From Roseibium sp. (GTDB taxonomy: Bacteria > Pseudomonadota > Alphaproteobacteria > Rhizobiales > Stappiaceae): a stretch of DNA of 64,000 bases. The notes under the pieces are model-generated. The model was not told the DNA's origin and ran no database searches. It saw only the letters and a program-made list of their open reading frames with translations. Location: NCBI GenBank assembly GCA_017643925.1, contig JAEPML010000002.1, forward strand, positions 372,001 through 436,000, read 5' to 3'. Shown in pieces: positions 17,755-42,878 of this stretch (position 1 is its first letter; every line of letters starts with the position of its first letter). The translations under genes were made by a program, and so were the position numbers.

Positions 17755-17759
17755 GTGCG

Positions 17760-22237: not shown

Positions 22238-22472
22238 TCGCTACCTCTTCGGGAACTGCGGGCCTGTTGACGGAGATCGAAATGTACTGTGCGGTGTGTA
22301 ACCGACTTTAGGCGATAAATCAGAAATTAATCAATTGACTAGGAAAGAAGGGTAAGTGTTACAGCATTGCCACAGGTAGAATGTTTCTCCTGGGTAAAAT
22401 TGCGTTGTGCCTTGGACATCTCGGTGTGGGGGTGTTACCAGACTGGCAGCAAAAGGGGTGGATCGGGTTCTA

Positions 22473-23603
22473 ATGCGAATTTTGTCAGTACTGGTGGCTG
22501 CAGGGGCTCTGTTTGGATGTGCCGCTCTACCTGGTGATGGGCCAGCAGCCATTAACATCACGTCGCAGGATGTCGAGTCGAGTGCTGAGACCGGCGAGTA
22601 CACCGTTGTGACGGTGAGTGCCGACAATATTGAAACCATCAAATCCTATCGTCCGCTTTCTTTCGCCAACCAGTTCAGAGGCGTGGGGCACGGCGGTTCG
22701 CAGGTCCAGCTTGGGGTTGGCGACACACTTATCGTGTCGATCTGGGAAGCCGCTCCTGACGGCCTTTTCTCCGGTGGAGAATCCGGATCCAGCCAAATTC
22801 CAGCAGTTGTCGATGAAAGCGGGTACATCTTCGTTCCCTATGCCGGTCGCGTGCGGGCGGCAGGCTTGAGCGTCGAGGGACTGCGTCAGTCGATCCAGAA
22901 AAAACTCGTCGGGAAAGCGGTTGAGCCGCAAGTCCTTGTCTCGTTGCAGGAGAAGCTCAGCACGACGGCTGTGGTGGTCGGCGATGTCGCAAAGCCCGGT
23001 GTCTATCCCTTGCCGCTGCGCAACACCCGGCTGCTCGATCTTGTCGCCCAGGCAGGTGGAGCGCGTGAAGCTACCTATGAAACGGTGGTCACGCTCAAGC
23101 GGGGCAATCGTTCGGGTACGACCCGTCTCGAGGATCTGATCGAATATCCTGAGAACAATGTCCTGGTTGCGCCAAAGGACAACATTCTTCTGTCGCACAG
23201 GCCGCGCACCTTCTCTGCCTTTGGCGCAGTGAAGGCCAACCAGCTTGTTCCTTTCAAGACCAAGACCGTCACGATGGCGGAAGCGTTGGCAACCGTCGGC
23301 GGATTGCGGGACGAGCGCGCGGATGCCAATGGCGTCTTCCTTTTCCGCTATGAGGACGCGGCGCTTGTAAGAGCGCTGAGACCGGAACTGGCGGATAAAT
23401 TGGCAGGTCGGGGCGCTGTTCCGCTTGTCTACAAGCTGAGCCTCAGGGATCCGAAAGGATTTTTCTTGTCGCAGTATGTGGAAATGCGTGACAAGGACAT
23501 CCTGTATGTGTCAAATCACCCGACGGCAGAATTCGGCAAGTTCCTGCAGATTATTGCGCCGCTCCTCAGCAACTATGCAACGGTACAACGGATTACCGAC
23601 TAG
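22473..23603 (+). CDS. Capsular polysaccharide export lipoprotein (Wza/KpsD-like)
   Basis: From the ATG at 22473 the product is 376 residues. It begins with a lipoprotein signal (RILSVLVAAGALFGC, acylated Cys16). It then has a Poly_export region (VQLGVGDTLIVSIWEA... SQIPAVVDESGYIFVPYAGRV) and SLBB repeats (AVVVGDVAKPGVYPL, RTFSAFGAVKANQLVPF), as in Wza, KpsD and rhizobial export proteins. It would form the outer-membrane/periplasmic channel for capsule release. It is the first gene of a run of five same-strand genes (export protein, KpsS-like, KpsS-like, KpsC-like, SDR). The ATG at 22407 would put the lipobox too far from the N-terminus. Confidence 0.9.
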   Translation: MRILSVLVAAGALFGCAALPGDGPAAINITSQDVESSAETGEYTVVTVSADNIETIKSYRPLSFANQFRGVGHGGSQVQLGVGDTLIVSIWEAAPDGLFSGGESGSSQIPAVVDESGYIFVPYAGRVRAAGLSVEGLRQSIQKKLVGKAVEPQVLVSLQEKLSTTAVVVGDVAKPGVYPLPLRNTRLLDLVAQAGGAREATYETVVTLKRGNRSGTTRLEDLIEYPENNVLVAPKDNILLSHRPRTFSAFGAVKANQLVPFKTKTVTMAEALATVGGLRDERADANGVFLFRYEDAALVRALRPELADKLAGRGAVPLVYKLSLRDPKGFFLSQYVEMRDKDILYVSNHPTAEFGKFLQIIAPLLSNYATVQRITD

Positions 23604-23679: not shown

Positions 23680-25029
23680 ATGGGTTCAGACAGCTCCAAG
23701 GTGGTTCTTTTTCTTCAGGGACCGCCCGGGGTATTTGCGAAAACAATCGCGGATGCCCTGGAGCGAGTTGGTGCCAGAACGTTGCGCGTCAACCTGTGCG
23801 CTGGAGACTGGATCAGCTGGCATGACAAAAGGTGCACGTCTTATCGTGGCAGCCTTGAAAACTGGCCGGACTGGCTTCGCGACTTCTGTCTGAAACACAA
23901 GGTCACTCATATCGTCTATTATGCCGACCGTGTGCCTTACCATGTGGCCGCGGCTGAAGTCGGTGTCGAAATCGGTGCAACGTGCCTGACATATGAGAAC
24001 GGTTATTTGCGGCCGGACTGGATCACGCTCGAACATGTCGGCATGTCCGCCCATTCCAGATTTCCTGACGATCCTGAAATCATCCGCCAGGCCGGTAACG
24101 GTCTTCCGGAAATTGATCGTGAACCGCTCTACACGTACCCGTTCATCAACGAGGCGGTCAACGAAGTCTCGTACAACGTGTCGAACGTCTTTTTTGCGCT
24201 GGCATATCCGCGCTACCAGCGGGACAAGCTGTATCACCCCATCATCGACTATCTGAGCAACATTCCAAGATTTTCACTGGCAAAATGGCGCAACAGGCGC
24301 GCCTACCACGTGATCGACGACATTATCGCCACCGGCCTGCCGTACTATGTTTTTCCGTTGCAGCTCCAGAGCGACTACCAGCTGCGATACAATTCCCAAT
24401 ATGATCACATCGGCGAAGCTGCTGAAGAAGTCATAAGATCCTTCGCTGCCAACGCACCTTCTGCCGCGCAGCTTGTTTTCAAGGTCCATCCTTTGGACAA
24501 CGGCATGGAACCCTGGACACGCATCTTGCGGACGATCTCCAGGAAGTATGGCGTCAAGAAGCGAGTGCATCTGGTTGACGGTGGCAACCTGGGACAATTG
24601 CTCACCCACGCCGCAGGATCCATAACGATCAACAGTACAACCGGCTTGCATGCACTGCGTGTCGGATGCCCAACAAAGGTACTCGGGATCGCCCTTTACA
24701 ATATCGACGGCCTCACATGTCAAAAGCCACTGGATGATTTCTGGCGTCACGGCACTGCCCCCGATGAATCACTGCTTGAGGCTTTGGAACGCCTGTTGGC
24801 AGCGTCAATTCAGGTCAAGGGATGCTTTTACACCCGCGAGGGCCGGGAGGCAGGGGCTGAACTCATGGCGGATCGCATCGTTTCCGGAACGGTCAACCTG
24901 CCTGATGCCAATTGCGAATATCCCCCCAGACTCGAGGAAGCGCGCGCGCGGAAAATAGCGACATCCTTCGCCGAACAGCTCAGGACACGCGGAACAATGG
25001 AACGCTGGTCACATGTCTGGCGCCCTTGA
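23680..25029 (+). CDS. KpsS-like capsular polysaccharide (Kdo transferase) protein, copy 1
   Basis: The 449-residue protein shows the KpsS/LipB-type layout: VVLFLQGPPGVFAKTIADAL at the start, NLCAGDWISWHDKRCTSYRG, YADRVPYH and TYENGYLRPDWITLE near residue 100, and FPLQLQSDYQLRYNS and VFKVHPLDNGMEPW in the second half, ending with the sugar-nucleotide-site segment SITINSTTGLHALRVGCPTKVLG. KpsS and KpsC build the poly-Kdo linker that joins group 2 capsules to a lipid anchor. It overlaps the next, paralogous gene by 17 bases. Assignment of its exact linkage step is not possible from sequence. Confidence 0.85.
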   Translation: MGSDSSKVVLFLQGPPGVFAKTIADALERVGARTLRVNLCAGDWISWHDKRCTSYRGSLENWPDWLRDFCLKHKVTHIVYYADRVPYHVAAAEVGVEIGATCLTYENGYLRPDWITLEHVGMSAHSRFPDDPEIIRQAGNGLPEIDREPLYTYPFINEAVNEVSYNVSNVFFALAYPRYQRDKLYHPIIDYLSNIPRFSLAKWRNRRAYHVIDDIIATGLPYYVFPLQLQSDYQLRYNSQYDHIGEAAEEVIRSFAANAPSAAQLVFKVHPLDNGMEPWTRILRTISRKYGVKKRVHLVDGGNLGQLLTHAAGSITINSTTGLHALRVGCPTKVLGIALYNIDGLTCQKPLDDFWRHGTAPDESLLEALERLLAASIQVKGCFYTREGREAGAELMADRIVSGTVNLPDANCEYPPRLEEARARKIATSFAEQLRTRGTMERWSHVWRP

Positions 25030-26341
25030 TCAAAGTGGCAAGCCGCACGCAGAGCCTGCCGAGGCAACGGAACGTCGTGTCCTGTTTCTTCAAGGTCCGC
25101 TCTCGCCCTTTTTTCGCCTCGCGGGTGATCACCTCAAGGCGATGGGGCATGAAGTCTTCAGGATAAACTTTTGTGCTGGTGATTGGTTTCACTGGCATGG
25201 TGGGGAATGCACCAGCTTCAAGGGCAGTTCCGAAGATTGGCCTCAGTTCATCGAAACCTATCTGACGCAGAACCGGATTACGGATCTGGTGCTGCACGGA
25301 GATCAACGGCTTTACCATCGGATCGCCATCCGGAAGGCAAGGGACATTGGCGTTTATATTGCCGTGACGGAGCTTGGCGCCTTGAGAACAGGGTGGATGA
25401 CGCTTGAAAGGAACGGACTTTCGACGCTCAGCCACTTTCCTTCCAATCCCGAGCAGATAAGCGAGATTGCCAGGACGGCGGAGGAGATTGATCTTCAACC
25501 GAGATATCCGTCGTCCTTCTGGCTCCAGACTGCGCCGGATGTGACCTACAATCTCCTGAACGTCTTCCTGAAACCACTTTATCCGAACTATCAGCAGCAC
25601 ACGATTTATCCGCCTGTTCTGGAATACATGCGTGGCGCTGGTCGGCTGGTCTCGGAGGACAAGCGAAACCGGACGGCAGAAGAAGAATTGCAGAAGCTGC
25701 AATCCGCCAAGACTGACTATTTTCTTCTTCCATTGCAGCTGGAGGGAGACTTCCAGCTGCGCAGGCACTCCAACTTCGACAGCTTTTCCGAAGTCATCGA
25801 AACCGTCTTTGCTTCCTTTTCAAGCCATGCCTCGAGGGATGTTCATATCGTGCTGAAAAGCCATCCGCTCGATGTCGGCTTCGAGGGCTGGCCAGGCGTG
25901 ACGAAGGAGCTTGCATCCAAGCATGGCCTTGCGGATCGTGTGCATTTTCTTGACGGCGGTGGGCTTGCCAAGCCGTTTGAGACGGCAAAAGGGGTCGTGA
26001 CACTGAATTCGACAGCAGGACTGGAGGCGATTCAGCAAGGTGTTCCGGTAAAGACACTGGTTCCGGCGCATTATGATATTGCCGGCCTGACGCACCAGGG
26101 CGAACTCTCCGATTTCTGGAAAGCCCCCCAGCGTCCGGATGCTGAGTTGTTTGACAGCTATATCAAGGCACTTGCCGCAACGACGCAGATCCGTGGCACG
26201 ATCCACAACGCGGAAGGCGTGAAGGTCGCGGCGAAGAATCTCGCCGAACGCGTCAGCGCCCGGTCTCTCAACCCGCTGGGAGCGTTCGTCGATCCGCCAC
26301 CGCGACTTGAAAAAGCCCGGAAGATCGGGGTGCCGTTGTGA
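25013..26341 (+). CDS. KpsS-like capsular polysaccharide (Kdo transferase) protein, copy 2
   Basis: The 442-residue protein is a clear paralogue of its upstream neighbour. Shared blocks include VLFLQGP near the start, CAGDWFHWHGGECTSFKGS, the DVTYNLLNVFLKPLYPNYQ region, LPLQLEGDFQLRRHSNFD, VLKSHPLDVGFEGW and VVTLNSTAGLEAIQQGVPVKTL. Like that protein it fits the KpsS/RkpZ-type Kdo transferases of capsule linker synthesis. The start lies inside the end of copy 1 and the stop overlaps the next GTG start, so all three are probably coupled. Two tandem copies suggest two different linker steps or two acceptors. A less likely alternative is a redundant duplicate. Confidence 0.86.
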   Translation: MSGALDQSGKPHAEPAEATERRVLFLQGPLSPFFRLAGDHLKAMGHEVFRINFCAGDWFHWHGGECTSFKGSSEDWPQFIETYLTQNRITDLVLHGDQRLYHRIAIRKARDIGVYIAVTELGALRTGWMTLERNGLSTLSHFPSNPEQISEIARTAEEIDLQPRYPSSFWLQTAPDVTYNLLNVFLKPLYPNYQQHTIYPPVLEYMRGAGRLVSEDKRNRTAEEELQKLQSAKTDYFLLPLQLEGDFQLRRHSNFDSFSEVIETVFASFSSHASRDVHIVLKSHPLDVGFEGWPGVTKELASKHGLADRVHFLDGGGLAKPFETAKGVVTLNSTAGLEAIQQGVPVKTLVPAHYDIAGLTHQGELSDFWKAPQRPDAELFDSYIKALAATTQIRGTIHNAEGVKVAAKNLAERVSARSLNPLGAFVDPPPRLEKARKIGVPL

Positions 26342-28086
26342 CTGAAGCGCTGAACACCAAACCCCGATTGAAATTGAAGGCGCTTCCGACGGCAAAACGG
26401 TACCAGAAGGCCCTACGGGCTGCCTTGCATGCTGGAACCGTCGATGGGCTGTCCGAGAGGAGATCGTTTGTTGCCGCGGGCCCGAACGAAATCGAAACGG
26501 CAATCAAGCGTGCAAGCGCAACAGGTGCGGTGCCATTGCTGGTTGTTGAAGGACCGACGCCCTTTGGGTCGAAAAGGTTGCCGCCATGCCTGGTCACGTT
26601 GCCGTTGGCACAGGGCAATTCAAGGACGGAAACCGGTTCGAACACATTACTTGCTGCCAGTGTTCTGGCCGAATTGTCTTCGGAGATTGCTAAGAGAGAG
26701 CCGGACAGTTGGGGGGACTATGCCTGGCCTCCGTTTGAGACCACGTTCGAACAATCGGGAGAAAAGGAACCGTCCTCAACCGATGTTCTCGGCTTTCAGG
26801 ACTTTGCCTATGGTACCGGGGAGCGTTCGACTACCAATGGGTTCTGGCAAGACTTACTTTCCGCTGCGCGGTCGGCTGCCGTCAATCAAAAGTATTTGGC
26901 AAGCCTGATACAGCGCCGGTATTGCGCTTGGTTCTCGCCCTATACCGGGCTGCCGATCAGTCCTGTTGAGGCGCAGACAATTGGTGAGATCATTTTGGAA
27001 AACTGGCAGCAAAATGATCTCATCAGTCACTGCTACGGCGCGCAACATTGGAATCATCCCGCGATCAATGCCACGTTTTCCGGCAAAAACGGCGATGTAC
27101 ATTTTCATGACACGCAACAAGGAGCCCTGGACGCGGCTGCAGCAGACAATGGCCAGGTTCTGTCCTGGGCCGGACGAACCGATCCGCAATTTGAAAGCAA
27201 TTGCCAGGAGCGAAGCGTACGGCTGCTGCGGATCGAGGACGGCTTTTTAAGGTCGGTAGGGCTGGGGGCTGGCCTGGCGCGCGGGGCGATGCTGGCTGTC
27301 GACGACAGCGGCATCTATTATGATCCGTCCCGACCCAGCCGGCTGGAACGGCTTCTCTCTGGATATGACCTGTCGGATGACGAGTTGGAACGCGGCAGGT
27401 CTCTCGTGCAACTGATCAAGGCGGCGCGCGTTTCCAAATACAACTTTGGCAAACCGAAATCTTTCTCCTTTCCGTCTGACAAGATGCGCATTCTCGTGCC
27501 GGGCCAGGTGGCCGATGACGCAGCGATCAGAAAGTCCCGCTCCAGCACGATCGACTGCGTGAACACGCCAAATGTCAATCTGGACCTTCTTCGACTTGCA
27601 CGCGAACGCCATCCGGACGCGTTCCTGGTTTTCAAGCCGCATCCGGACGTGGAAACCGGACTTCGCAAGGGCAAGGTCGAACGTGAGATAGCGTTGCAAC
27701 ACGCCGATGAAGTGGCGAGCGACGCGAACATCATCGATCTCATTGAAGCTGTCGATTGTGTCGAAACCTTCTCGTCCTTGTCGGGATTTGAAGCATTGCT
27801 GCGAGACAAGCGGGTGATCGTGCACGGTGCGCCGTTTTATGCCGGTTGGGGATTGTGTGAGGATCTCACTGAAATCGAGGGCCGTTCCAGGCGCCGGACA
27901 TTGCCGGAACTTGTTTATCTGGCGCTCGTAAAATATGCACGCACCATCGATCCGGTTTCACTACTGCCCTGTAGTCCCGAATTCCTGGTGCAGCGGCTCG
28001 TGGAACAGAAGTCAGACAAGAGGCATCTGCTTGTAACAGCGCTCAAGCGGCATTCGTCGTGGCTTGGCCGCAAGCTCGGCATATGA
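26338..28086 (+). CDS. KpsC/RkpJ-like capsular polysaccharide protein with one transferase module
   Basis: The 582-residue protein starts at GTG overlapping the previous TGA. The C-terminal half (about residues 220-560) is a KpsC-type transferase module: VLSWAGR, RIEDGFLRSVGLGAGLARGAML, DDSGIYYDPSRPSRLE, ILVPGQVADDAAI, FKPHPDVETGLRKG, VETFSSLSGFEALLRDKRVIVHGAPFYAGWGL. A terminal RRTLPELVYLALVKYARTIDPVS segment follows, typical of the second KpsC module. The first about 200 residues are not a recognisable second module; classical KpsC is about 670 residues with two. This is therefore a single-module version. It probably adds a Kdo residue to the capsule linker, with the KpsS-like pair supplying the other steps. 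Confidence 0.85.
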   Translation: MTEALNTKPRLKLKALPTAKRYQKALRAALHAGTVDGLSERRSFVAAGPNEIETAIKRASATGAVPLLVVEGPTPFGSKRLPPCLVTLPLAQGNSRTETGSNTLLAASVLAELSSEIAKREPDSWGDYAWPPFETTFEQSGEKEPSSTDVLGFQDFAYGTGERSTTNGFWQDLLSAARSAAVNQKYLASLIQRRYCAWFSPYTGLPISPVEAQTIGEIILENWQQNDLISHCYGAQHWNHPAINATFSGKNGDVHFHDTQQGALDAAAADNGQVLSWAGRTDPQFESNCQERSVRLLRIEDGFLRSVGLGAGLARGAMLAVDDSGIYYDPSRPSRLERLLSGYDLSDDELERGRSLVQLIKAARVSKYNFGKPKSFSFPSDKMRILVPGQVADDAAIRKSRSSTIDCVNTPNVNLDLLRLARERHPDAFLVFKPHPDVETGLRKGKVEREIALQHADEVASDANIIDLIEAVDCVETFSSLSGFEALLRDKRVIVHGAPFYAGWGLCEDLTEIEGRSRRRTLPELVYLALVKYARTIDPVSLLPCSPEFLVQRLVEQKSDKRHLLVTALKRHSSWLGRKLGI

Positions 28087-28943
28087 CCGGAAGGTTGAAA
28101 GGTCTGCGCATGACGTCAGAAAAGGGAAATGTCATCGTTCTGACGGGCGCCAGCGGCGGTATTGGCCGGGCGCTCGCATTGGAACTGGCACAACCTGGAA
28201 CCTATTTTGCGCTGATTGCCCGCGACGCCGACAGGCTGCAACCAATTTTGCAAGAGGTCTGCGCCAAAGGTGCAAGCGGGGAAGTCGCAGCGATTGATAT
28301 CCGGGAGAGGGCGCAATTGCACGATTATCTCCTCGATCTCGACGCGCGCCATCCCGTGGATGTCGTCATCGCCAATGCCGGTGTCACTGCAGGGCTCGGG
28401 CCGGACAGGACCCGTGAAAGCGATGCGGATTGTGAACGCCTGACCGAAATCAACTACCAGGGTGTCGTGAACACGGTGACGGGCATTGTTGATGCCATGC
28501 AAAAGCGGGGACGTGGCCAGATCGTGTTGATTTCGTCGCTTGCCGGCATGCGCGCCTTGCCGGATATGCCTAGCTACAGCGCAACCAAGGCTGCCGTCAT
28601 CGCCTACGGCCATTCTCTCAGGGGCTGGCTCAAGCCATTCGGCGTGTCTGTGACAATCATTTGCCCTGGATTTGTGACCACGCCGATGTCGGCGCGGCAC
28701 AAGGGATCCAAGCCGTTCGAGATGAACGCGGAAAAGGCGGCACGGCTGATGCGGCGTGCCATGGAAAGGCGCAAGGCCTTCTTCGCCTTTCCCTTTGTTC
28801 TGGCGCTCGGCATAAGGCTGCAAAACCTGTTGCCACCAGTGCTGGGTGACTTGTTCATGGGTGGTTTCGCGGCCGATATCGAGGCCGATCCGCGCTATAG
28901 CGCCGGTTCGGAGAATCCTTCGAACGACAGCAAGTCAGACTGA
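28083..28943 (+). CDS. rkpH: Short-chain dehydrogenase/reductase (RkpH-like)
   Basis: From the ATG at 28083, which overlaps the KpsC-like stop as ATGA, the product is 286 residues. A second ATG at 28110 is possible. The classical SDR features are intact: TGASGGIG at residues 21-28 for NAD(P) binding, NAG at 98-100, catalytic Ser152, and Tyr165-x-x-x-Lys169. In rhizobia the equivalent gene, rkpH, sits in the rkpAGHIJ region beside the RkpA synthase and the RkpG transferase. By analogy with 3-ketosphinganine reductase it may reduce the ketone made by the neighbouring alpha-oxoamine synthase. The symbol rests on context and family, not on proven function. Confidence 0.82.
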   Translation: MTGRLKGLRMTSEKGNVIVLTGASGGIGRALALELAQPGTYFALIARDADRLQPILQEVCAKGASGEVAAIDIRERAQLHDYLLDLDARHPVDVVIANAGVTAGLGPDRTRESDADCERLTEINYQGVVNTVTGIVDAMQKRGRGQIVLISSLAGMRALPDMPSYSATKAAVIAYGHSLRGWLKPFGVSVTIICPGFVTTPMSARHKGSKPFEMNAEKAARLMRRAMERRKAFFAFPFVLALGIRLQNLLPPVLGDLFMGGFAADIEADPRYSAGSENPSNDSKSD

Positions 28944-28980
28944 TTTTTTAGAAATTACCGAATGAAATCAAGGCCGCGCT

Positions 28981-30339
28981 TTATCGCGCAGCCCTGATAA
29001 GCCGGTCCACGGCATTGCCGTCCGCACGCATGGCGTCAAGTTCGGACGCGGTCGTTTCGACAGCGCGGACAATCTGCTCTTCCGTATGCTCGCTGGTAAT
29101 GAAGAAGCGGAGCCGGGCCGATTTTTCCGGCACGGCAGGGAAGATGATCGGCAGAGCATTGATGCCCTTGGCCAATAGCCGATTGGACAATGTTGCCGCA
29201 CTGGCCGAGTCACCGACAATCACCGGTACTACCGCGTAACCTGCACTTGGGCCTGTATTCAGTCCGGCTTCTTTCGCCAGTTTGAGAAAGAGCGCCCCGT
29301 TTTCCTGAAGCTTTTGGACCCTCTCAGGTTCTCTTTCGAGCAAGTCGGCGGAAGCGATGGCTGCGCCCGCAAGTGCAGCGGACAACCCCACGGAGAACAC
29401 GAAGCCGGGCGCAGAAACCCTGAGATAGTCGCACAAAACCTTGGAACCAGCGATGTAACCGCCACAAGACGAGAACGTCTTGCTGAGCGTTCCCATCCAG
29501 ATCTCGACCTCGGTCGGATCGATGCCGAAGTGCTCGGAAATCCCTTTTCCGGTCTTGCCGAGCACGCCGATGGAATGGGCCTCATCCACCATGAGCCAGC
29601 AATCATAGGCTTGCTTGAGTTTTATGACGCGCTTCAGGTCCGGAAAATCTCCATCCATGGAATAGAGACCTTCAACGGAAATCAGCACCTTGTCGAACTT
29701 GTGCCGATGATCGGACAGCATTTTTTCAAGAGCGTCCAGATCATCATGGGGAAAGTTCATGCGTGTGGCACCTGACAGCCGCACGCCTTCAGCAATGGAA
29801 TTGTGCACGAAGGAATCAGTGAGGACCAGGTCACCTTTCTGCATCAGGTGTCCGATGGTCGTGACATTGGTTGCATGGCCGGACACCATGACGATCGAGG
29901 ATTCCACGCCGTGTATGCGGGCGAGGGCGTCTTCCAGTTCACCATGGAAGGGCCGTTCTCCCGCTACGATACGGCTGGCGGAAACACTGGTTCCAAATTT
30001 CTCGAGCGCCGCCTTCGCCGCAGCATTCACCTCAGGGTGCCCATTCAGGCCCAGGTAATTGTAGGAAGCAAAATTGTCGTAGTTGCTTCCCTCGATAATG
30101 CTCGTCCCGGCCGCAAGGCCGTCATGAGGTCGAAAGAATGGATTCTCGATCCCCATCATATCGGCAGCCGCGCGATGCATCTGGAGCTGCTTGATCTGCG
30201 GCAGTTCCTTGAAATCGAAGACTTTTCTCTTCGCGGCAGGCGCCTTTGACGACGTATCCGTCTCGGCCTTGCGTCCGCGAGCGGAACGTCTGTTAGCCTT
30301 CAGGCTGTCCATGAGTTTGGCGCGGCTGTCCGATCCCAT
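28981..30339 (-). CDS. rkpG: PLP-dependent alpha-oxoamine synthase (RkpG / serine palmitoyltransferase-like)
   Basis: The 452-residue protein is a fold-type I PLP enzyme of the alpha-oxoamine synthase group: SYNYLGLNGHPEV, RIVAGERPFHGELE, SGHATNVTTIGHL, VDEAHSIGVLGKTGKGI with Asp252 and His255, and TLSKTFSSCGGY with the Schiff-base Lys287. Such enzymes condense an acyl thioester with glycine, serine or alanine with loss of CO2. A basic, low-complexity N-terminal tail of about 45 residues precedes the core. The gene is directly downstream of the large synthase on the same strand (25-base gap), so it could off-load the acyl chain from the synthase ACP. It matches rhizobial RkpG in family and position. 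Amino acid substrate unknown. Confidence 0.85.
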   Translation of the reverse strand: MGSDSRAKLMDSLKANRRSARGRKAETDTSSKAPAAKRKVFDFKELPQIKQLQMHRAAADMMGIENPFFRPHDGLAAGTSIIEGSNYDNFASYNYLGLNGHPEVNAAAKAALEKFGTSVSASRIVAGERPFHGELEDALARIHGVESSIVMVSGHATNVTTIGHLMQKGDLVLTDSFVHNSIAEGVRLSGATRMNFPHDDLDALEKMLSDHRHKFDKVLISVEGLYSMDGDFPDLKRVIKLKQAYDCWLMVDEAHSIGVLGKTGKGISEHFGIDPTEVEIWMGTLSKTFSSCGGYIAGSKVLCDYLRVSAPGFVFSVGLSAALAGAAIASADLLEREPERVQKLQENGALFLKLAKEAGLNTGPSAGYAVVPVIVGDSASAATLSNRLLAKGINALPIIFPAVPEKSARLRFFITSEHTEEQIVRAVETTASELDAMRADGNAVDRLIRAAR

Positions 30340-30364
30340 GCAGTATTATCCTTGAGTATGCCCG

Positions 30365-33300
30365 TTAAAGGAATGAACCGAGCTCGCGGCTCTTGTTCTC
30401 GACCTCTGCTGCAACGTCCGACAGATCCTCTGTTTCGTGTCTCTCGTCGTCCATGTGCAGGCTGGCTAGCTGTTGGGTTTCATCCGAAACGCCAGATGCT
30501 GACTCCTCCCCAAGCACACGATTTGCAACACGGCTTGAAAGATCAATCAGAGTCGCCCCATTAGCCAGCGACATCAGCGGGATGTCAATGCCAAATTGCT
30601 GTTCTGCGCTCATGCGCAGCTCGAGCGCCATGAGGGAATCCATTCCGATGTCGGACAGAGGCTTGTGTGGGTCGATTTCTTCGGGTGAGATCCTCAGAAT
30701 CTTGCCAATTTCGGTCGCCAGCAGCTTGGCAACGGTCTGTGCGGCCGTAACCTGGTCCATCCCCTCAAGCATTGCCGCAAGATCAACAACACCATCGGCA
30801 CCGGCATCGTCTTCGTCACCGAGGCCAAGAAGTGACACCAGCGGTGTTCCGACCAGCGAGAGGTCCTTGCGCGCAGCCTGCCAGTCGATGCGGGCATAAC
30901 CCAATGCAGAGAGCGCGCCCTGGTCAGCATATTGGGGTGCCAGAAGGGTCATCAGACCATCGAGCGCCTCTTTTGCCGTTAGCGCGTGCCGGCCAAGTTT
31001 GCGCGACAGCATCTCATTGACGTCTTCGTTGCGGGCAAGGTAACCCGCATCGGAAATGGCGCCCCAGGCAATCGCCAGGGCAGGTTTGCCTTCTGCGCGC
31101 CGTTTGCGGGCGAGACCTTCCAGGTACCCGTTGGCCGCGACATAGTTTGCCTGGCCAGGGTTGCCGACAAGGGTGGTCGCGGAAGAATAGAGCACGAAGT
31201 GATCCAGCGGATCGTCGGATGTAAGCTCGTCGAGCAACTCGGCGCCACGCACTTTCGGGGCGAGAACCCTGGTGAGCCCGTCGTGATCCATGTTTGCCAG
31301 GAGAACGTCGTTCAGGACCATCGCGGTATGGAACACGCCCTTGAGCGGCAGGCCTGCAGATCGGATGTCCTGCAGCGCATTTTTGATCGCGGTTTCGTCC
31401 GTGATGTCGCAGGCATAGCCCGTGACCGTCACATCGCGGTCTTTCAGCGAGGCGATGACGGCCTGGGCGTCTTCGCTCGCATCTCCCCGGCGGCTGAGAA
31501 CTGCCAGGTTTCGAGCACCGTGATCGGCAAGACGATGCAGCAACGCGGCACCGAAACCGCCAAATCCACCGGCAATCAGGTAGACAGCGTCGCCATCAAT
31601 GGCAACTTCTTCATTCGCGGTCGTCGAACTTTCTGGAGCGAGCGGCGGACGAAGCACGATCTTGCCGATGTGCCCAGCCTGCTGCATCAGGCGGAACGCA
31701 TCCACAACGTCTTCTGAATCAAAAACACGGTGCGGCAATGGACGCAGGGTTCCGTCTTCGAACAATTCCACGAGTTTTTCGAAGAGTTCCTCGGCGAGTT
31801 TGGGCTGACGTGTTAGGAGCTGATCGGCGTCGATGCCATAATAGGTGAGGTTCTGGCGGAACGGCCGGAGGCCGATGCGCGTGTTGCCATAGTAGTCGCG
31901 TTTGCCGAGCTCAAGGAAGCGACCGAACGGCTTCAGCACCTCGATGCTGCGCTCCATCGCTTCGCCGAACAGCGAATTCAGAACCACATCAACACCGTCG
32001 CCGGCGGTTTCTTCGAGCACCGCGTCAACAAAGGCCAGGCTGCGGGAATCCAGAACGACATCGGCTCCCAGGAGTTTCAGCGTGTTGCGCTTGTCTTCCG
32101 AACCGGCAGTCGCAATGATCCGCGCACCGCGCCACTTTGCGATCTGAAGGGCCGCGAGGCCCACGCCACCGGCACCACCGTGAATCAGGACCGTTTCGCC
32201 TTCCTCGAGGCGCGCGAGATGCACGAGGGCATAATAGGCCGTCAGGAAGGTCACCGGGATTGTCGCGGCTTCCTCGGCCGAGACGTTTTGCGGCATCGGT
32301 GCGCAACCGCTTTCATCAACGGTCACATGCGAGGCAAAACAGGCCGGGGCAAAGGTAATGACCTTGTCACCGGGACGGAAACGCGTGACATCGGGTCCGC
32401 AATTGACGACATGCCCGCAGCATTCCATGCCAAGGGTCGGACCGGCAAAACCGTCTTCCAATGCCTCTTCGGGAAGCAGGCCAAGTGCCCACATGACATC
32501 CCTGAAGTTGAGACCACTCGCATCGACCGCGATTTCGACATCCCTGTCGCCAAGAGGCTTGCGCTCGACGGTTTGCCAGGAAAGCTGATCAAGGGAACCT
32601 TGTCGAAGGATGTCGAGACGCATTGCGGTCTCTGCGCCGTCCCGCAAACCAGGTCCGGAAAGAACACCGCCCTTGAGAATCCGCAGGCCAGAGCGAGACT
32701 TGCTGTCGAGCACGACCTCGCGTTCACCATTGTGCACCAGGATCTCTTCGGCTACCCGCGCTGCGGCGATGCCGGGTTCCAGATCCGGGGAAACATCGAT
32801 CAGTTTCAGATTTGCATCCGGGTATTCGTTCATCACCACGCGGCCGAACGCCCAGACACCGGCCTGATCAGGAATGGGCGCCTTGCCTCCGGCAATGTCC
32901 TGGGCACCGGCAGGGGCAATGATCGTTACTTCGCCCTCATTGGCGCTGAGCGCCTTGAGAACGGCCATCATGGTGTAAGCACGTGTATCAACCGACTGAA
33001 GCGCGTTACCCGGTGCAGCGTATGCTCCCAGCAAATGCACGATGCGACCTTCATGTGACCTGATCAGGTCCGACAAAGTCTCATCCGGGGCTTCACCCTG
33101 TTTGTCGGCATCCAGGTCTGCGCTCCAGATGCCTTCGCCGAGCTGCTCTGTCACTTCACCCGGTACCAGGAGCGTTGCCGTGTGTCCGTCGCGCTCCAGA
33201 CAGGATTTCAGGCCTTCTGCAAACCGGTATTCGGCACCTTCGGCGTCTGTCAGCAGCAGGTAGGACCTGGTGGTTTCCTGCTCATCCTGTTCTTCGCCAT

Positions 33301-36300
33301 CGTCATCTGAAGCCGCTGTCTCTTCGATTTCCGCGATTTTTGCGGAAATCAGGTCGGCCTCCAGCAGGCTCGTCTTCAGAGGCACGGTGGAAACGTCTCT
33401 GAAACCGGCTGCTTCAAGCGGTTTTTGCCAATCGTCCTGTTGAAGCGATACGGGGAACTCCGCGCTGGCGGACTCGTTCCACCAGTTCGCGCCCACACCC
33501 ATGATCAGATCCGTAAGTGGCTGTGGCAGGGGCTCTGCGGCAAAGACCAGCCCGCCCTTGGTCACGGCACTGGCGATGCGGGCAAGCACCTCGCTGTCTA
33601 TGTCTGCCAGAGACGTATCGAAAAGAACCAGATCGAAGTAGCGGTCAAAGGTGAACTCGGCTTCACTCGGGTCCACGAAGCTGGTCGCCGAGCTTCCCTG
33701 CCAAAGCCGTTCGCCGCGGCCAACCGCCGCGGACGTTGAATCGGTGACAGTCAGAGCCATGTGCCTGGGGTCGAGCAATTCGTCCAGGCTGTTGGCGAGG
33801 CCGCCGGTGGCGCCGACAAGGAGAATCCGAAGAGGTTGATCCTTGGACCAGTCGATCACGAACTTGCGCGCGCTCTCCAGCAGGGCTGCGGAAAGCGCCT
33901 TTTTGCCCGGCGACGAGTCGCGGTAGGCCTCAAACAGGCTCGACGAATAGATCTTGCCGGACGTTTCAGCCAGGCCGAATGTGAGGATCTCGGACAATCC
34001 GGTCCAAAGTCGTGCCAACAAGGCGGCTTCTGCAATGTGCTCTCCACCACCGTCAATCAGAGCCTGCAGCAGGTCATGTGCGGATGGGTTTTCGGAAGGA
34101 TCACTGATCAGGAAACCGTCTTCCGTTTCCTCACACAACTCGCTTTCATGCAGCCAGTGCAGCATGCTTGCTGCGAGCGGAGCTGCCGTTTCGTGCAGTT
34201 TGCCTGCCTCCACGTGGGCAGGGAGCTGGAGAGGGGTGCCATCGCTCAAGTCATAAAGGGCCTGGTGGGCAATCGTGCGCCCAAGCGCTTCAATGAGAAG
34301 CCGGCTGTCTTCGAGCTCCTGTTCGTCGGAGCCAGCCAAGTCAAGTTCTTCGGCCAGTTTTTCAAGGCTCTGGAACTTTTCGGACACTGGTGACACGCGG
34401 CCGTTTGTCGGCAAGATCGTTGCGATCTGTCGATATACGAGGTCGTCGGGATGTGTGTCCTGTCCAAGCGTGACCGCCTTGAACCGAGCCTTGTTCAGCC
34501 GTGCAATTGTCTGACCGTCCTCGTCGAGGAACTCGAAGCTTGCCTCGATCGAACGGGGTGAGGCCTTGGTGACTTCAATGCGCACCGTTGTTGGATTGAC
34601 CTCGGCTGCGAGCAGCCGGAGCGTTCCCATTCTGATCGGCAGGAACGATGTGTTCTGGGGCACACCCTCGACGCCGTCCAGCAAGGCAAACAGGCCGTGG
34701 AAACCTGCGTCAACCAGGGTCGGGCAAAGCGCAAAGGGGAGGTCTGCGACACTTTCATCCTGCGGCAGCAAGGTGACTGTTGCGGACGTGTCCGAGTGGC
34801 GAACAACTTCCTTGGCGCGTCTGAAGGCTGGCCCGTAGTTCAGACCGAAACTCTGTGTGATCTTGTAAAGAGTCTCGTGATCGAGAACCGAAACGGTTTC
34901 GTCATGGGTCTTCAGCCACGGCGTTCTGGAAACGGTGGAAGGTGTGATGAACGTTCCACGAGCATTCAACGACCAGTCGTTTTCGGACAGGCGTGGTCGC
35001 GAAAGGATCTCGATCACATTGTCATCTGATGAAATGCGGACCTGGGTTTCCCAGACTTCGTCCACCTCAATAACGAGAGGGCGCAGGATGTCGAAGTCCC
35101 GGAGTTCGATCTTGTCGCCGCGCGTCCAGCGCAAGGCTGCCCGCAGGCTCATTTCAATATAGCCGGCAGCGGGGAAGACCACGCTTTGCTCAACCTTGTG
35201 GTCGGTCAGGAAATCGAGAGAACCTGAGTCGATGTGGTTGAACCACTCTGCTGCATCCTGACGAAGTCGATATCCGAGCAGGGGCCACGTCTGGCCGAAC
35301 ATGAAGTCGACACGCTCGGGACTGCTTTCCGGCTTGAAATCGCTGTTTTGCCATGGATAGGAAGGCAGATCGGCGATATCGGCCGGTTTGGGGCCGACAA
35401 ATTTCTCAAGATCGGTCTGACCGCCATGTGCGATGATGGTTGCGGCGATCCGGTCAATGGGATTGCCGGCAGGGACGCCGCCACTCTTGGGCGGTTCTTT
35501 CAGCGTCTCGAGGAACTTGGCCTTCTTGCCCTTGGCCCGCAGCACGTCGTTGACGTAGGTCCCCAAAACGGTCTTGGGACCGATTTCGACGAGGACGCTG
35601 AAATCGTAGGCGGCCATGTTTTCGATCGCAGCGGCAAAAAGAACCGGCTGACGAACGTTTTTCCACCAATAGTCCGGGTCTACGCGGACGTCGGTCTCTT
35701 CTGGGGTCACCGTTGAATAGAACGGCAAGCCCGGTTCGGTCGGAGTGAGACCATCCAGTGCCGCAAGGAGCGGTTCGCGGATCGGGTCAACGAGCGCACT
35801 GTGGAAAGGGTAGGCCAGGTTCAGTCGGCGCATGGCCCATTTTTTCTTGCGAGCAAACTTCGCAAACGCATCGAGACTGTCGCTGTCACCGGAGATCGTG
35901 ACACTGCGCGGGCTGTTGTCTGCAGCGAGTTCAAGCCGCGGCAGTCCGCTTTCGTTTATCGCATCGACAGCCTTTTCAGCCGGCAGAAGCAGAGCTCCCA
36001 TGGAGCCAAGGTCGCGCACCACTTCTTGCTCGCTGGAACGTGCCCGGATGACCTTGACGGCCTGTTCCAGGTCAAGCGCGCCTGCACACCATGCCGCAGC
36101 CACTTCACCGACGGAGTGACCAGCCGTTCCGGAGGCGGTAATTCCCCGATGGCGGAGCGATTCAACAAGACCGACCTGTATCGCGAACAACAGGGGCTGC
36201 GCGATTTCGGACCGCTCGAGATCTGCTTCCAGGTCTTCCGCGAAAAGCGTGGTAACCAGCGACCAGCCGCTGATACCCATGAAGATCTTGTCGACCTTGT

Positions 36301-37978
36301 CAAAGGCGTCCCGGAACGTGACATCAGCCTGATAGGCATCCTGGCCCATCCCGGCCCACTGGGAGCCGTTCCCGGAAAACACGAACCCGACCTTGGCGTC
36401 TGGTTTGATAATGCTGCCAGAAATGGTGTCAGCCTGTTCGTCACCGGTTTCCGCGAATGCACGCAGGGCGGCCAGCTTGTCCTCTGCCGACTTGGCCGTA
36501 AGGATCAGACGCTCGGAAAGCAGGTCACGCGCATGCGCTGAAGAGGCAATGATCTTGCCGGCCGTGTCCGCGTCCCCGTTTTCAAGACGATCACCATACC
36601 GGCTTGCAAGTTCCTGCAAGGCTTCCTTCGAACGGGCACTCAGTACCAGCGGTGCCTCGACCGGCAGTGTCTCGGTGGCAACGGGGACCGGTTCTGCATC
36701 TCCGATGACCGCGTGTGCGTTGGTGCCGCCAAATCCGAAGGAGTTGATACCCGCGAGGCGGCGTTTGTCAGACCGCTGCAATTCAATGGCGTCGCCGGCA
36801 ACCTTGAGGTTCAGCTCTTCAAACGGAATGTCGGGATTTGGCGTGTTGAAATGCAGGGAGCTGGGCAGCAGGTCCTGCTTCAGCGCCATGACGGATTTGA
36901 GCAAGCCAACAAGGCCGGAGACAGGCTCCAGGTGACCAACATTGGTTTTCACCGAACCGATCGGAAGAACGTCGGTCCGCTTCTGACCGATTACCTTGCC
37001 AAGAGCATCCGCTTCCGCAGGGTCGCCCACCCGGGTGCCCGTGCCATGAGCTTCAACAAAGGCCAGTTCCTTTGGATCAACCTCGAGGCCTTCATAGATC
37101 TCGCGCAGCAGATCAGCCTGGGCGTAGGGCGAGGGGAGTGACAGGCCAACGGTTCGTCCGTCGGCGTTGATGCCGGTCGCCAGCAGTTTGCCGTGGCTCT
37201 TTGATCCGCTTGGCAGACCTGCACGTGCTGCTCGCAGCACGACGACGGCACCGCCTTCGGAGCGCACATAACCAGCGCCATTGGCGTCGAAAGCCTGGCA
37301 CAGGCCTGTCGGCGACAGCATGGTCGCGCGCGAAAACCCGACAAAGGCGAAGGGGCTGAGGAGAAGGCTGACACCGCAAACGATTGCAGTATCGATCTGT
37401 CCGCTTTCAATTGCCGATACAGCCTCGTGCAATGCAACGATTGAAGAGGAGCATGCCGTGTCGACGGTGAAACTCGGCCCGCGCAGGTCGTAGATATAGG
37501 AAATTCGGTTGGAGACGATGGAAAGCGTGTTCCCCGTCATGAACTGCATGTCGGCTGTCGCAGGGTCGACGATGAAGCGATGATGGTAGTCCAGAGACGA
37601 AGCCCCGACATAGACACCCGTGTTCGAGCCGGCGAGGTCGCTCGGGCGGATGTTTGCGTGCTCCAGGGCTTCCCACACCAATTGCAGCAAAAGCCGCTGC
37701 TGGGGATCCATCTGGACGGCTTCACGCGGGGAAATTCCGAAAAAAGCCGGATCGAATCCCCACACATCGTCGAGCTGCCCGGCAGCCCATGTATATGTTT
37801 TCCCGGAAGTGGATTGCTGCGGATGCCCGAAGCGCGCCAAAGGCCAGCGCTCAGGAGACACCGAAGAAACGGCGCATTGCCTTTCCTTCAGCAATGACCA
37901 GAATTCATCAGAATTTTTGGCTCCAGGGAGCCGAGTAGAATAGCCTAGAATGTCTATGTTTGATGTAAGCGATGCCAC
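30365..37978 (-). CDS. rkpA: Single-module highly reducing type I polyketide synthase (RkpA-like)
   Basis: The 2537-residue multienzyme reads, in order: ketosynthase 1-430 (Cys176 in TACSSS, His311, His349); malonyl-type acyltransferase 530-830 (Ser622 in GHSVGE, AYPFHS at 722-727); dehydratase 895-1180 (His927, Asp1090); a degenerate methyltransferase-like region about 1230-1540 (LLVGATGGL instead of a proper SAM loop); enoylreductase 1780-2110 (HGGAGGVGLAALQ); ketoreductase 2125-2330 (GGFGGFG, active Tyr in GQANYVAANGY); and ACP 2410-2490 (Ser2448 in GMDSL). There is no thioesterase. The set can carry out full fatty-acid-like cycles on one module. Start is GTG. It matches S. meliloti RkpA in size, domain order and linkage to RkpG/RkpH, and probably builds the acyl part of a lipid for K-antigen export. 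Confidence 0.92.
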   Translation of the reverse strand: MASLTSNIDILGYSTRLPGAKNSDEFWSLLKERQCAVSSVSPERWPLARFGHPQQSTSGKTYTWAAGQLDDVWGFDPAFFGISPREAVQMDPQQRLLLQLVWEALEHANIRPSDLAGSNTGVYVGASSLDYHHRFIVDPATADMQFMTGNTLSIVSNRISYIYDLRGPSFTVDTACSSSIVALHEAVSAIESGQIDTAIVCGVSLLLSPFAFVGFSRATMLSPTGLCQAFDANGAGYVRSEGGAVVVLRAARAGLPSGSKSHGKLLATGINADGRTVGLSLPSPYAQADLLREIYEGLEVDPKELAFVEAHGTGTRVGDPAEADALGKVIGQKRTDVLPIGSVKTNVGHLEPVSGLVGLLKSVMALKQDLLPSSLHFNTPNPDIPFEELNLKVAGDAIELQRSDKRRLAGINSFGFGGTNAHAVIGDAEPVPVATETLPVEAPLVLSARSKEALQELASRYGDRLENGDADTAGKIIASSAHARDLLSERLILTAKSAEDKLAALRAFAETGDEQADTISGSIIKPDAKVGFVFSGNGSQWAGMGQDAYQADVTFRDAFDKVDKIFMGISGWSLVTTLFAEDLEADLERSEIAQPLLFAIQVGLVESLRHRGITASGTAGHSVGEVAAAWCAGALDLEQAVKVIRARSSEQEVVRDLGSMGALLLPAEKAVDAINESGLPRLELAADNSPRSVTISGDSDSLDAFAKFARKKKWAMRRLNLAYPFHSALVDPIREPLLAALDGLTPTEPGLPFYSTVTPEETDVRVDPDYWWKNVRQPVLFAAAIENMAAYDFSVLVEIGPKTVLGTYVNDVLRAKGKKAKFLETLKEPPKSGGVPAGNPIDRIAATIIAHGGQTDLEKFVGPKPADIADLPSYPWQNSDFKPESSPERVDFMFGQTWPLLGYRLRQDAAEWFNHIDSGSLDFLTDHKVEQSVVFPAAGYIEMSLRAALRWTRGDKIELRDFDILRPLVIEVDEVWETQVRISSDDNVIEILSRPRLSENDWSLNARGTFITPSTVSRTPWLKTHDETVSVLDHETLYKITQSFGLNYGPAFRRAKEVVRHSDTSATVTLLPQDESVADLPFALCPTLVDAGFHGLFALLDGVEGVPQNTSFLPIRMGTLRLLAAEVNPTTVRIEVTKASPRSIEASFEFLDEDGQTIARLNKARFKAVTLGQDTHPDDLVYRQIATILPTNGRVSPVSEKFQSLEKLAEELDLAGSDEQELEDSRLLIEALGRTIAHQALYDLSDGTPLQLPAHVEAGKLHETAAPLAASMLHWLHESELCEETEDGFLISDPSENPSAHDLLQALIDGGGEHIAEAALLARLWTGLSEILTFGLAETSGKIYSSSLFEAYRDSSPGKKALSAALLESARKFVIDWSKDQPLRILLVGATGGLANSLDELLDPRHMALTVTDSTSAAVGRGERLWQGSSATSFVDPSEAEFTFDRYFDLVLFDTSLADIDSEVLARIASAVTKGGLVFAAEPLPQPLTDLIMGVGANWWNESASAEFPVSLQQDDWQKPLEAAGFRDVSTVPLKTSLLEADLISAKIAEIEETAASDDDGEEQDEQETTRSYLLLTDAEGAEYRFAEGLKSCLERDGHTATLLVPGEVTEQLGEGIWSADLDADKQGEAPDETLSDLIRSHEGRIVHLLGAYAAPGNALQSVDTRAYTMMAVLKALSANEGEVTIIAPAGAQDIAGGKAPIPDQAGVWAFGRVVMNEYPDANLKLIDVSPDLEPGIAAARVAEEILVHNGEREVVLDSKSRSGLRILKGGVLSGPGLRDGAETAMRLDILRQGSLDQLSWQTVERKPLGDRDVEIAVDASGLNFRDVMWALGLLPEEALEDGFAGPTLGMECCGHVVNCGPDVTRFRPGDKVITFAPACFASHVTVDESGCAPMPQNVSAEEAATIPVTFLTAYYALVHLARLEEGETVLIHGGAGGVGLAALQIAKWRGARIIATAGSEDKRNTLKLLGADVVLDSRSLAFVDAVLEETAGDGVDVVLNSLFGEAMERSIEVLKPFGRFLELGKRDYYGNTRIGLRPFRQNLTYYGIDADQLLTRQPKLAEELFEKLVELFEDGTLRPLPHRVFDSEDVVDAFRLMQQAGHIGKIVLRPPLAPESSTTANEEVAIDGDAVYLIAGGFGGFGAALLHRLADHGARNLAVLSRRGDASEDAQAVIASLKDRDVTVTGYACDITDETAIKNALQDIRSAGLPLKGVFHTAMVLNDVLLANMDHDGLTRVLAPKVRGAELLDELTSDDPLDHFVLYSSATTLVGNPGQANYVAANGYLEGLARKRRAEGKPALAIAWGAISDAGYLARNEDVNEMLSRKLGRHALTAKEALDGLMTLLAPQYADQGALSALGYARIDWQAARKDLSLVGTPLVSLLGLGDEDDAGADGVVDLAAMLEGMDQVTAAQTVAKLLATEIGKILRISPEEIDPHKPLSDIGMDSLMALELRMSAEQQFGIDIPLMSLANGATLIDLSSRVANRVLGEESASGVSDETQQLASLHMDDERHETEDLSDVAAEVENKSRELGSFL

Positions 37979-39858: not shown

Positions 39859-40233
39859 TATTGGGCTCCCAGGATGGAATGATCATTATCGCTAGTCTTA
39901 GACAGCTTGGCCAGCGGCCTTGGTACAGATGCGTCCTAACCTAACCTAATTCCGGCATGCGTGAACCGGAGATATTGCCTCGCGCAACCCATTGTGGTGT
40001 GATTTTCAGCCCTCCGGAATTTTGGACCGTGTCGTGGTCAACACGCGCCATGACGCAATTACGCTATTTGGTACCGTGATCTGCCGCGATACTGACACCA
40101 AGTTGTCTGTATGCCGGGTCAGACCGACAGGTAAACATGCATCGGATCTGAAACCGGGCTGATCAGCCGCGCACACTAATGCATATGGGAGGGGCGCTGC
40201 CTCTGTTCCCTGCTGTTGAAGAGGAATGAAAAA
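39859..40233. other. Divergent intergenic region between mttB-like and DMGDH-like genes
   Basis: This 375-base region should hold both promoters. A short interrupted dyad CGTGT/ACACG occurs at 40028-40045, and CCTAA repeats at about 39936-39946. The ribosome site GAGGA for the plus-strand gene is at 40221-40225. No gene is seen. Confidence 0.5.
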
Positions 40234-42795: not shown

Positions 42796-42852
42796 TTGCC
42801 ACCGGTATAACAAGACCGGGGAAATCTTGCTTTCCAATCCAGAACCAGACAA

Positions 42853-42878
42853 ACCCCGCGTGGACAACCGCGCGGGGT
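42853..42878 (+). terminator. GC-rich hairpin between the DMGDH-like gene and bmt
   Basis: Arms ACCCCGCG and CGCGGGGT pair around a 10-base loop, but no U-tract follows. It may only partly terminate, or may stabilise the upstream message. Confidence 0.4.

Follow-up and report, generated by a model that had tools for sequence, protein, structure and literature searches.

In Pseudomonas fluorescens MYb115, the pair PfSgaAB, consisting of a polyketide synthase (PKS) and an alpha-oxoamine synthase (AONS), produces sphinganines from L-serine, and a short-chain dehydrogenase/reductase (SDR) is proposed as the reducer (PMC12134224). According to the same report, PfSgaB uses serine almost exclusively, mutants in sgaA and sgaB lose the C24-28 sphinganines, and species shifted by +154 Da are read as phosphoglycerol sphingolipids. 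The products, free sphinganines and glycerophospho-sphinganines, are read there as secondary metabolites (PMC12134224, Peters et al. 2025), and 6,101 homologous sga-type clusters are counted, with Burkholderia dominant. The main text of PMC12134224 contains no mention of capsule, kps, polysaccharide, rhizobia or lipoteichoic acid (LTA) synthase. An adjacent PKS and AONS are also encoded in the capsule region rkp-1 of Sinorhizobium meliloti and Sinorhizobium fredii. The subject of this text is a comparable gene block of Roseibium sp. (Stappiaceae; assembly GCA_017643925.1, contig JAEPML010000002.1), located in a stretch of 64,000 nucleotides (positions 372,001 to 436,000), hereafter called the window. 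With a probability of about 0.58, this block represents the RkpA-RkpG (WcbR-WcbT) lipid module as it occurs in Stappiaceae and makes a sphingoid base for a capsule glycolipid.

The gene order of rkp-1 and its single long rkpA are summarised in PMC7902896, whose citations link rkp genes to the rhizobial K antigen since the 1990s. A table in PMC4270759 lists an S. fredii rkpA mutant as making no K-antigen capsular polysaccharide (KPS). In Burkholderia, wcbT-manC is described as a capsule cluster with wcbR as its fatty acid synthesis part (PMC2945791, PMC7858667, PMC3908369), and the wcb and rkp clusters have been called orthologous and capsule-related (PMC3908369). Burkholderia wcb is likened to the window through this literature, while the sequence comparison used Paraburkholderia and Caballeronia relatives. 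The group 2 capsule system of Escherichia coli has the PF05159 family in common with the window and is not known to include lipid-making genes. In the fungal fumonisin pathway, the AONS unloads the chain of a reducing PKS and an SDR reduces the ketone. This is a toxin pathway with another amino acid and no capsule genes; its AONS, Fum8, uses alanine. The combination of PKS, AONS and SDR (Fum1, Fum8 and Fum13) is nevertheless alike, and Fum13 is named in PMC12134224. Two other candidates for comparison were set aside: the 'polyketide synthase' of a group 3 capsule paper (PMC13410964) is an unrelated gene, and the sponge swf PKS is distinguished from wcb/rkp in its own paper.

In the window, a plus-strand row of genes for an outer membrane polysaccharide export (OPX) protein, two KpsS-type proteins, a KpsC-type protein and an SDR is faced by a PKS and an AONS gene on the minus strand (Table 1). 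The PKS/AONS pair is convergent on the capsule row, and the stops of AONS and SDR are separated by 37 bp. A sequence-only reading of the window had described a single-module reducing PKS without thioesterase, with Ser2448 on its acyl carrier protein (ACP) domain, an AONS directly downstream with the pyridoxal phosphate (PLP) lysine Lys287, and an SDR closing a KpsC/KpsS-like gene row. All positions and residues named in that reading were confirmed. Pfam domains and motifs agree with this description of the PKS, the AONS begins 25 bp downstream of it with Lys287 exactly placed, and the order OPX-KpsS-KpsS-KpsC-SDR is kept in 15/15 loci of the Roseibium group.

The PKS comprises KS (residues 7-377), AT (532-826), DH (899-1170), ER (1811-2109), KR (2131-2309) and ACP (2420-2482) domains. 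Full reduction and iterative use are expected of this domain set. The motifs DTACS, EAHGTGT, KTNVGH and GHSVGE were found together with the DH His/Asp residues, the ER and KR nucleotide motifs and Ser2448 of the ACP; at one position of the DH motif, Q stands in place of the G of the Pseudomonas PKS. Between DH and ER, residues 1171-1810 (about 640 residues) gave no Pfam hit and look like decayed methyltransferase and ketoreductase remnants. None of the 18 Pfam hits is a thioesterase or terminal-reductase domain for release. The lack of such a domain, together with the adjacent AONS, suggests that the AONS unloads the PKS. Fused proteins point in the same direction. A Planktothrix plasmid (L051, 7587-15185) encodes one protein of 2532 residues with KS, AT, DH, ER, KR, ACP and AONS in this order, and a Streptomyces plasmid (L049, 10371-15194) encodes KS, AT, ACP and AONS in one protein. 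Such fusions argue strongly that an RkpG-type AONS works on its own PKS. In Paraburkholderia (L047, 14941-15855, Pfam-tested) and Caballeronia (L048, 14898-15824), a gene for an LpxC-type deacetylase lies between PKS and AONS.

The window AONS is 53% identical to the RkpG candidate of S. meliloti; the rkp names in this species were assigned from gene order (rkp-1 per PMC7902896), not from the record. In a tree of 52 AONS sequences, including two references for serine palmitoyltransferase (SPT) only, 36 sequences labelled as PKS-linked, four of which are Pseudomonas proteins labelled without view of their neighbours, share an ancestor of 44 tips with a support of 0.94. This clade takes in the S. 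meliloti RkpG candidate and members from Pseudomonas, Paraburkholderia, Methylobacterium and the Roseibium group, as well as eight sequences without a PKS nearby. At 25 of 25 columns, hand-chosen around the active site and many of them invariant, the window AONS equals five Pseudomonas relatives (L046 and four others), which were taken as kin of PfSgaB, the sequence of PfSgaB itself standing outside the comparison. The chemistry that the sequence-only reading had proposed, in which an ACP-bound acyl chain is joined to an amino acid and the ketone is reduced to give a sphingoid base, is thus well supported by the SgaAB precedent as reported in PMC12134224, by the PKS-AONS fusions and by the active-site columns. 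Such sphingoid-base chemistry is considered highly probable for the block. The AONS was also considered as BioF of biotin synthesis or as the 2-amino-3-ketobutyrate CoA ligase (KBL) of threonine degradation, and both assignments were rejected, as the curated cut-offs are missed and a PKS is adjacent. On a Thioclava plasmid (L061), an AONS gene lies beside genes for an ACP, an AMP-binding protein, a ketosynthase and a phosphopantetheinyl transferase, which is a different small lipid or metabolite cluster.

The identical gene order recurs in 15/15 Roseibium/Labrenzia/Stappia loci (L005-L019), out of 40 loci that the AONS search returned, and for this reason the block is not a chance arrangement. 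PKS and AONS were matched full-length and free of stops in all 15. The OPX gene was found in each of them, truncated by the contig end in L010, and three OPX or SDR matches contain stops, which fall at the ends of the genes. The window AONS is 92% identical to that of the Labrenzia alba/R. album record. Among the other 25 loci, Chthonobacter L041 encodes a PKS and an AONS; its SDR lies at a distance of 9 kb, and no KpsS-type match was seen within 21 kb. The remaining 24 showed no PKS match on the stretch covered. The AONSs of L020-L040, 44-48% identical to that of the window, belong to Clostridiaceae, other Bacillota, Planctomycetota and one unclassified bacterium, likewise with no PKS match on the stretch covered.

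The genes for putative Kdo (3-deoxy-D-manno-oct-2-ulosonic acid) transferases link the block to KpsC/KpsS-type capsule loci. In E. coli, KpsS puts the first Kdo on (lyso-)phosphatidylglycerol (PG) and KpsC, a two-domain protein, extends it (PMC7694667). The first KpsS copy in the window is 46% identical to the RkpJ candidate of S. meliloti, the second 43% to this candidate and 38% to the first; their NCBIfam KpsS scores of 227 and 209 bits lie below the cut-off of 600 bits. The KpsC-type protein has its module at residues 288-560, which matches solved KpsC structures (PDB 6mgd, E=3.6e-49; 6mgb; 6mgc) and, of the two halves of two-module KpsC proteins, the second is its closer match; the N-terminal stretch before residue 288 is unmatched. 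A single KpsC module may lead to a short Kdo linker. The two KpsS frames share 17 bp and the second KpsS/KpsC pair overlaps at GTGA (26338), and these overlaps of few bases speak for one coupled operon. The start of the SDR lies at 28059 (listed), 28083 (ATGA overlap) or, given a stop opposite residue 16 in one relative, 28110. This SDR is 39-40% identical to SDRs of Pseudomonas and Paraburkholderia capsule-lipid loci but only 28% to the RkpH candidate of S. meliloti, so that 'RkpH' is a loose label for it.

The window resembles rkp-1 in its adjacent PKS and AONS, a KpsS-type gene, an OPX gene and an SDR. It differs in having two KpsS-type genes, a one-module KpsC, a convergent PKS/AONS pair and an SDR of low identity to the RkpH candidate, and no RkpI was found. 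The earlier interpretation, in which the rhizobial rkpAGHIJ genes have the same set, is supported in part: PKS, AONS and KpsS type are shared, the SDR is no close relative of the RkpH candidate, and the RkpI type was not found. The block is called a variant, because RkpI, KpsM and KpsE were not found and only one KpsC module is present. Nevertheless, with a PKS lacking a release domain beside an AONS, linked KpsC/KpsS genes and an export protein, the window holds the RkpA/WcbR-RkpG/WcbT module.

The Pseudomonas relative L046 may connect the sphinganine producers with capsule genes. This plasmid carries a capsule locus with two KpsC-type genes, one KpsS-type gene, KpsF, KdsA and KdsB. Genes for a PhyH-family dioxygenase, a PF05159 protein, a GNAT protein and an LTA-synthase-family protein lie between its AONS and SDR, followed by two more PF05159 proteins, a phosphotransferase, KpsF, KdsB and KdsA. 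The locus tags of MYb115 (PKS RS19805, AONS RS19800, SDR RS19775) are spaced by 5 and 25, as are those of L046 (RS26445, RS26440, RS26415). Because of this equal spacing, and from locus tags alone, we infer that the MYb115 sga cluster may be part of a capsule locus. PfSgaABC and the window are alike in their one-module iterative PKS, AONS and SDR, while PfSgaABC is described as secondary metabolism (PMC12134224). Caballeronia and Shinella relatives have ATP-binding cassette (ABC) exporter genes among their capsule neighbours. A plasmid capsule locus of Acidisoma (L058, 11022-25050) encodes an AONS (45% identical), an SDR, a fatty-acid-hydroxylase/sterol-desaturase-family protein, two PF05159-type proteins, an LTA-synthase-family protein and KpsE/M/T-like proteins, with no PKS match within the 25 kb read. 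This locus speaks for a sphingoid lipid in the capsule, wherever its acyl chain comes from. Of 322 matched plasmid records, 15 regions were examined.

The association extends across Pseudomonadota. Among 299 evenly drawn genomes, the AONS (query L046, E <=1e-110) occurs in 13 and the KpsC/S family PF05159 (E <=0.001) in 47. A PKS adjoins the AONS in 14/14 places in the 13 genomes. PF05159 is present in 11/13 AONS-positive and 36/286 other genomes (Fisher p 3e-8); when one genome is retained of the five in genus g5, it is present in 7/9 AONS-positive genomes (p 3e-5), the tests being uncorrected for kinship beyond this genus. AONS and PF05159 share a contig, at most about 15 kb apart, in 6/13 (G000, G262, G028, G143, G167, G050) and on different contigs in five (G185, G095, G271, G151, G265). 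Capsule neighbours were checked in flanks of about 10 kb, longer for G050, G143 and G262. A second sample of 229 genomes from the class of G050 (E <=1e-120) yielded six with the AONS, with the PKS adjacent in G050 and three others; G302 (two places) and G384 have no adjacent PKS, and one G302 stretch shows a weak PKS-like match 5.5 kb off. Both samples together give 20 distinct AONS places, 17 of them with a PKS directly beside. The link of the AONS to KpsC/KpsS-family genes is therefore statistically strong across Pseudomonadota.

A further component is the RkpI-type protein. The S. meliloti record (L045) has the order export gene, PKS, AONS, SDR, an LTA-synthase-type open reading frame (ORF), PF05159 gene and KpsF gene. 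This ORF (18382-19920), between the SDR and the KpsS-type gene, where the published order places rkpI, is unannotated, belongs to PF00884 and is 60% identical to a Shinella protein. The RkpI candidate as found (L045, 18223-19944), which was used in this form, is absent from the gene table of the record, and its N-terminal residues seem to be read in a wrong frame; the rkpI copy may be broken in that strain. A profile of six RkpI-type proteins (A2) has as its best PDB match the phosphoglycerol transferase GacH (E 1.4e-27), followed by LTA primase and LTA synthases, and the alignment conserves E-S-F, T-x-R-x-E, N-H-G-P and G-D-H. GacH/LTA-type enzymes transfer glycerol phosphate from PG. The rhizobial RkpI candidate thus resembles glycerophosphate transferases in sequence, a likeness that is new here, and the RkpI type would be a natural source of the glycerophospho-sphinganine of MYb115. 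At E 1e-40, profile A2 matched 22/299 genomes: seven at >=333 bits, each of which also has the AONS, and 15 at about 152-232 bits, none of which has it. With the 333-bit limit, set post hoc in the observed gap, RkpI occurs in 7/13 AONS-positive and 0/286 other genomes (p 4e-11). Each of the seven strong matches has a PF05159 match within 1 kb, and PF05159 occurs in no genome of the 15 with weaker matches. Among 18 genomes chosen for their AONS, a PKS adjoins the AONS in 16, and the ten with an RkpI-type gene all belong to these 16.

In the proposed pathway, the PKS would assemble a long saturated acyl chain while holding it on its ACP domain. The AONS would condense this acyl-ACP with L-serine, freeing CO2 and yielding 3-ketosphinganine, and thereby unload the PKS, whereupon the SDR would reduce 3-ketosphinganine to sphinganine. 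In many relatives, an RkpI-type enzyme would then convert sphinganine to glycerophospho-sphinganine. This compound would have the same glycerol-phosphate end as lyso-PG, a known KpsS acceptor, and it is regarded as a fitting acceptor because KpsS adds the first Kdo to (lyso-)PG. KpsS-type enzymes would attach the first Kdo, and the KpsC module would extend it. An anchor role is more probable than not for the class of capsules; in this organism the product, its headgroup and its use as capsule acceptor are presumed, as is the role of the lipid as primer or anchor of the Kdo linker that the sequence-only reading had suggested. A wider proposal is held tentatively, at somewhat less than even odds. 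It states that rkp/wcb/sga capsules would be anchored by a PKS-made very-long-chain glycerophospho-sphinganine, a mimic of lyso-PG and the true KpsS acceptor, that the Pseudomonas sphingolipids would be anchor precursors, and that the Stappiaceae form in the window would be reduced and without the glycerophosphate step, Kdo perhaps being attached directly to the sphingoid base or to a headgroup of other origin.

Several findings weigh against a capsule sphingolipid. The AONS scores 288, 257 and 199 bits with the NCBIfam SPT models, whose cut-offs are 640, 500 and 670 bits. All matching BioF, KBL, SPT and 5-aminolevulinate synthase (ALAS) models remain below their cut-offs, with BioF at 343/426 bits, KBL at 300/460 bits and a second KBL-like score of 304; even so, the enzyme may work like SPT. 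Its Tyr93 (motif SYNYLG) is common to a plant SPT subunit and the human SPT2 chain, while Asn stands at this position in single KBL, BioF and ALAS representatives and in the solved bacterial SPT 3a2b. Tyr93 is therefore no general mark of SPT and no proof of serine use. The low identity of the SDR to the RkpH candidate also counts here, as do the two of 13 AONS-positive genomes in which PF05159 was not found (G012, G169); in G012, KpsT/KpsE/KpsM-like matches lie near one of two AONS copies. According to a review, a Burkholderia deletion that includes wcbR lowers the capsule but does not abolish it (PMC7858667). The RkpI association is less sharp at E 1e-40 (7/13 AONS-positive versus 15/286 others, p 6e-6), its 333-bit limit is post hoc, and profile A2 was built from genes near AONS genes and is biased to such kin. 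The window genome yielded no RkpI type in searches with the L046 protein, PF00884 and profile A2; a simple hydropathy scan gave no membrane helix for any of its five PF00884 proteins, and none of them resembles the RkpI panel. RkpI-like proteins carry predicted membrane helices. LTA synthases act outside the cytoplasm and KpsS acts inside, and hence flipping or a later exchange of the anchor would be needed.

The export genes likewise speak against the capsule role in this strain. No KpsM was found in the window genome with profile A3 and the G262 protein, and no KpsE with TIGR01010, which matched the other five of six genomes, in every case with a score under the cut-off set for that family; no separate search was made for KpsT. 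Two PF01061 ABC2 permeases lie beside drug-export-looking ATPases, and both look like drug-export types. G262, of the same family, has KpsM, KpsT, KpsE and the KpsC module together. Across the genus, KpsM reaches at least 286 bits in 17/39 genomes, 176 bits in one and 62-85 bits in seven, with none in 14. It is present in R. album, R. marinum, R. polysiphoniae and Stappia sp. BW2, matched by species or strain name to block-bearing loci among L005-L019, so that in these four relatives, at least, block and KpsM occur together. The window genome is a 130-contig draft of 5.83 Mb, and RkpI, KpsM and KpsE were not found in it despite a rated completeness of 99.98%. The exporter of this strain would be lost, replaced or located in an assembly gap.

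These observations leave room for other explanations. The lipid could be a free sphingolipid, either a membrane lipid or a secreted metabolite, whose genes neighbour the capsule genes because both shape the outer surface. The products of MYb115, read as secondary metabolites in PMC12134224, would fit, as would the retention of the block in a genome where KpsM, KpsE and RkpI were not found, the two AONS-positive genomes without PF05159 and the partial effect of the Burkholderia deletion that includes wcbR. Against it stand the strong RkpI matches next to PF05159 in 7/7 genomes, the position of the window SDR directly after the KpsC-type gene, and the S. fredii rkpA mutant listed as making no KPS (PMC4270759). 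It is considered rather unlikely; a plain secondary-metabolite cluster was set aside as the leading explanation given the KpsC/KpsS linkage and is kept in this form. Should the AONS use glycine or alanine, the product would be an amino alcohol lipid of the 1-deoxy type, with everything else as in the sphingoid capsule lipid. BioF (343 bits) and the KBL-like models (304 and 300 bits) do score above SPT (288 bits), the best PDB sequence match is a BioF/KBL-type enzyme, and fungal Fum8 offers the precedent of alanine. The 25 chosen columns, however, are the same as in the Pseudomonas kin of PfSgaB, reported to use serine (PMC12134224) and itself outside the comparison. Another amino acid is considered quite improbable.

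Two further explanations accept the capsule connection. The capsule might be started on PG, as in E. coli, with an RkpI-type enzyme later shifting the capsule-bearing glycerol phosphate to sphinganine outside the cytoplasm. The membrane helices of the RkpI type and its match to glycerophosphate transferases fit the outside compartment better. Nevertheless, this exchange appears quite unlikely in view of the polymer-free glycerophospho-sphinganine reported in MYb115 (PMC12134224) and the failure to find RkpI in the window genome. That the block is the leftover of a capsule locus that has lost its export half would agree with the patchy KpsM of the genus, present at >=286 bits in 17/39 genomes and missing in 14. 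It is very improbable, since the window frames are open, PKS and AONS are full-length in 15/15 group loci, R. album as the nearest named relative has KpsM, and a gap is possible in the draft. The sphingoid base for a capsule glycolipid is thus retained as the preferred explanation.

Table 1. Features of the candidate capsule-lipid block, with positions in the window.
Feature	Position	Strand	Basis
OPX/Wza-KpsD-type polysaccharide export protein (RkpU position)	22407..23603	+	Pfam Poly_export and SLBB
KpsS/RkpJ-type putative beta-Kdo transferase 1	23680..25029	+	PF05159, 252 bits
KpsS/RkpJ-type putative beta-Kdo transferase 2	25013..26341	+	PF05159, 239 bits
KpsC-type protein, one recognisable beta-Kdo transferase module	26338..28086	+	PDB 6mgd match
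SDR, candidate 3-ketosphinganine reductase	28059..28943	+	Pfam adh_short; start uncertain
RkpG-type AONS, candidate enzyme for condensing serine with acyl-ACP, 452 aa	28981..30339	-	PLP Lys287
RkpA/WcbR-type one-module PKS, 2537 aa, no release domain	30365..37978	-	Pfam domains and motifs
ACP domain of the PKS, Ser2448	30533..30721	-	Pfam PP-binding; motif DIGMDSL

The surroundings of the block contain further genes. An MTTB-superfamily methyltransferase gene on the minus strand, followed on the plus strand by genes for an FAD-oxidoreductase/GCV_T fusion and a homocysteine S-methyltransferase (38320-43963), looks like a cluster for the demethylation of methylated amines; the MTTB gene adjoins the PKS in 15/15 Roseibium-group loci. 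On the other side, an N-acylglucosamine 2-epimerase family gene (21053-22237) is divergent from the OPX gene and occurs in 14/15 of these loci, the 15th being cut by the contig end. Genes of the TamB and Omp85/TamA types (13411-19796, minus strand) lie near the capsule block.

In the open-access literature, no paper was found that names the rkp lipid product, and none was recognised, mostly from titles and abstract openings, that ties sphingolipids to rkp/wcb-type capsules. The link between the rhizobial and Burkholderia capsule literature and that on Pseudomonas sphingolipids was not found in print. If a sphingolipid does serve as the capsule acceptor, the anchor of the rhizobial capsule would gain an exact and testable structure, and the PKS-made sphingolipids of Pseudomonas would gain a likely cellular role. 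Sphingolipids would then join phospholipids as capsule anchors on surfaces that face plant and animal hosts.

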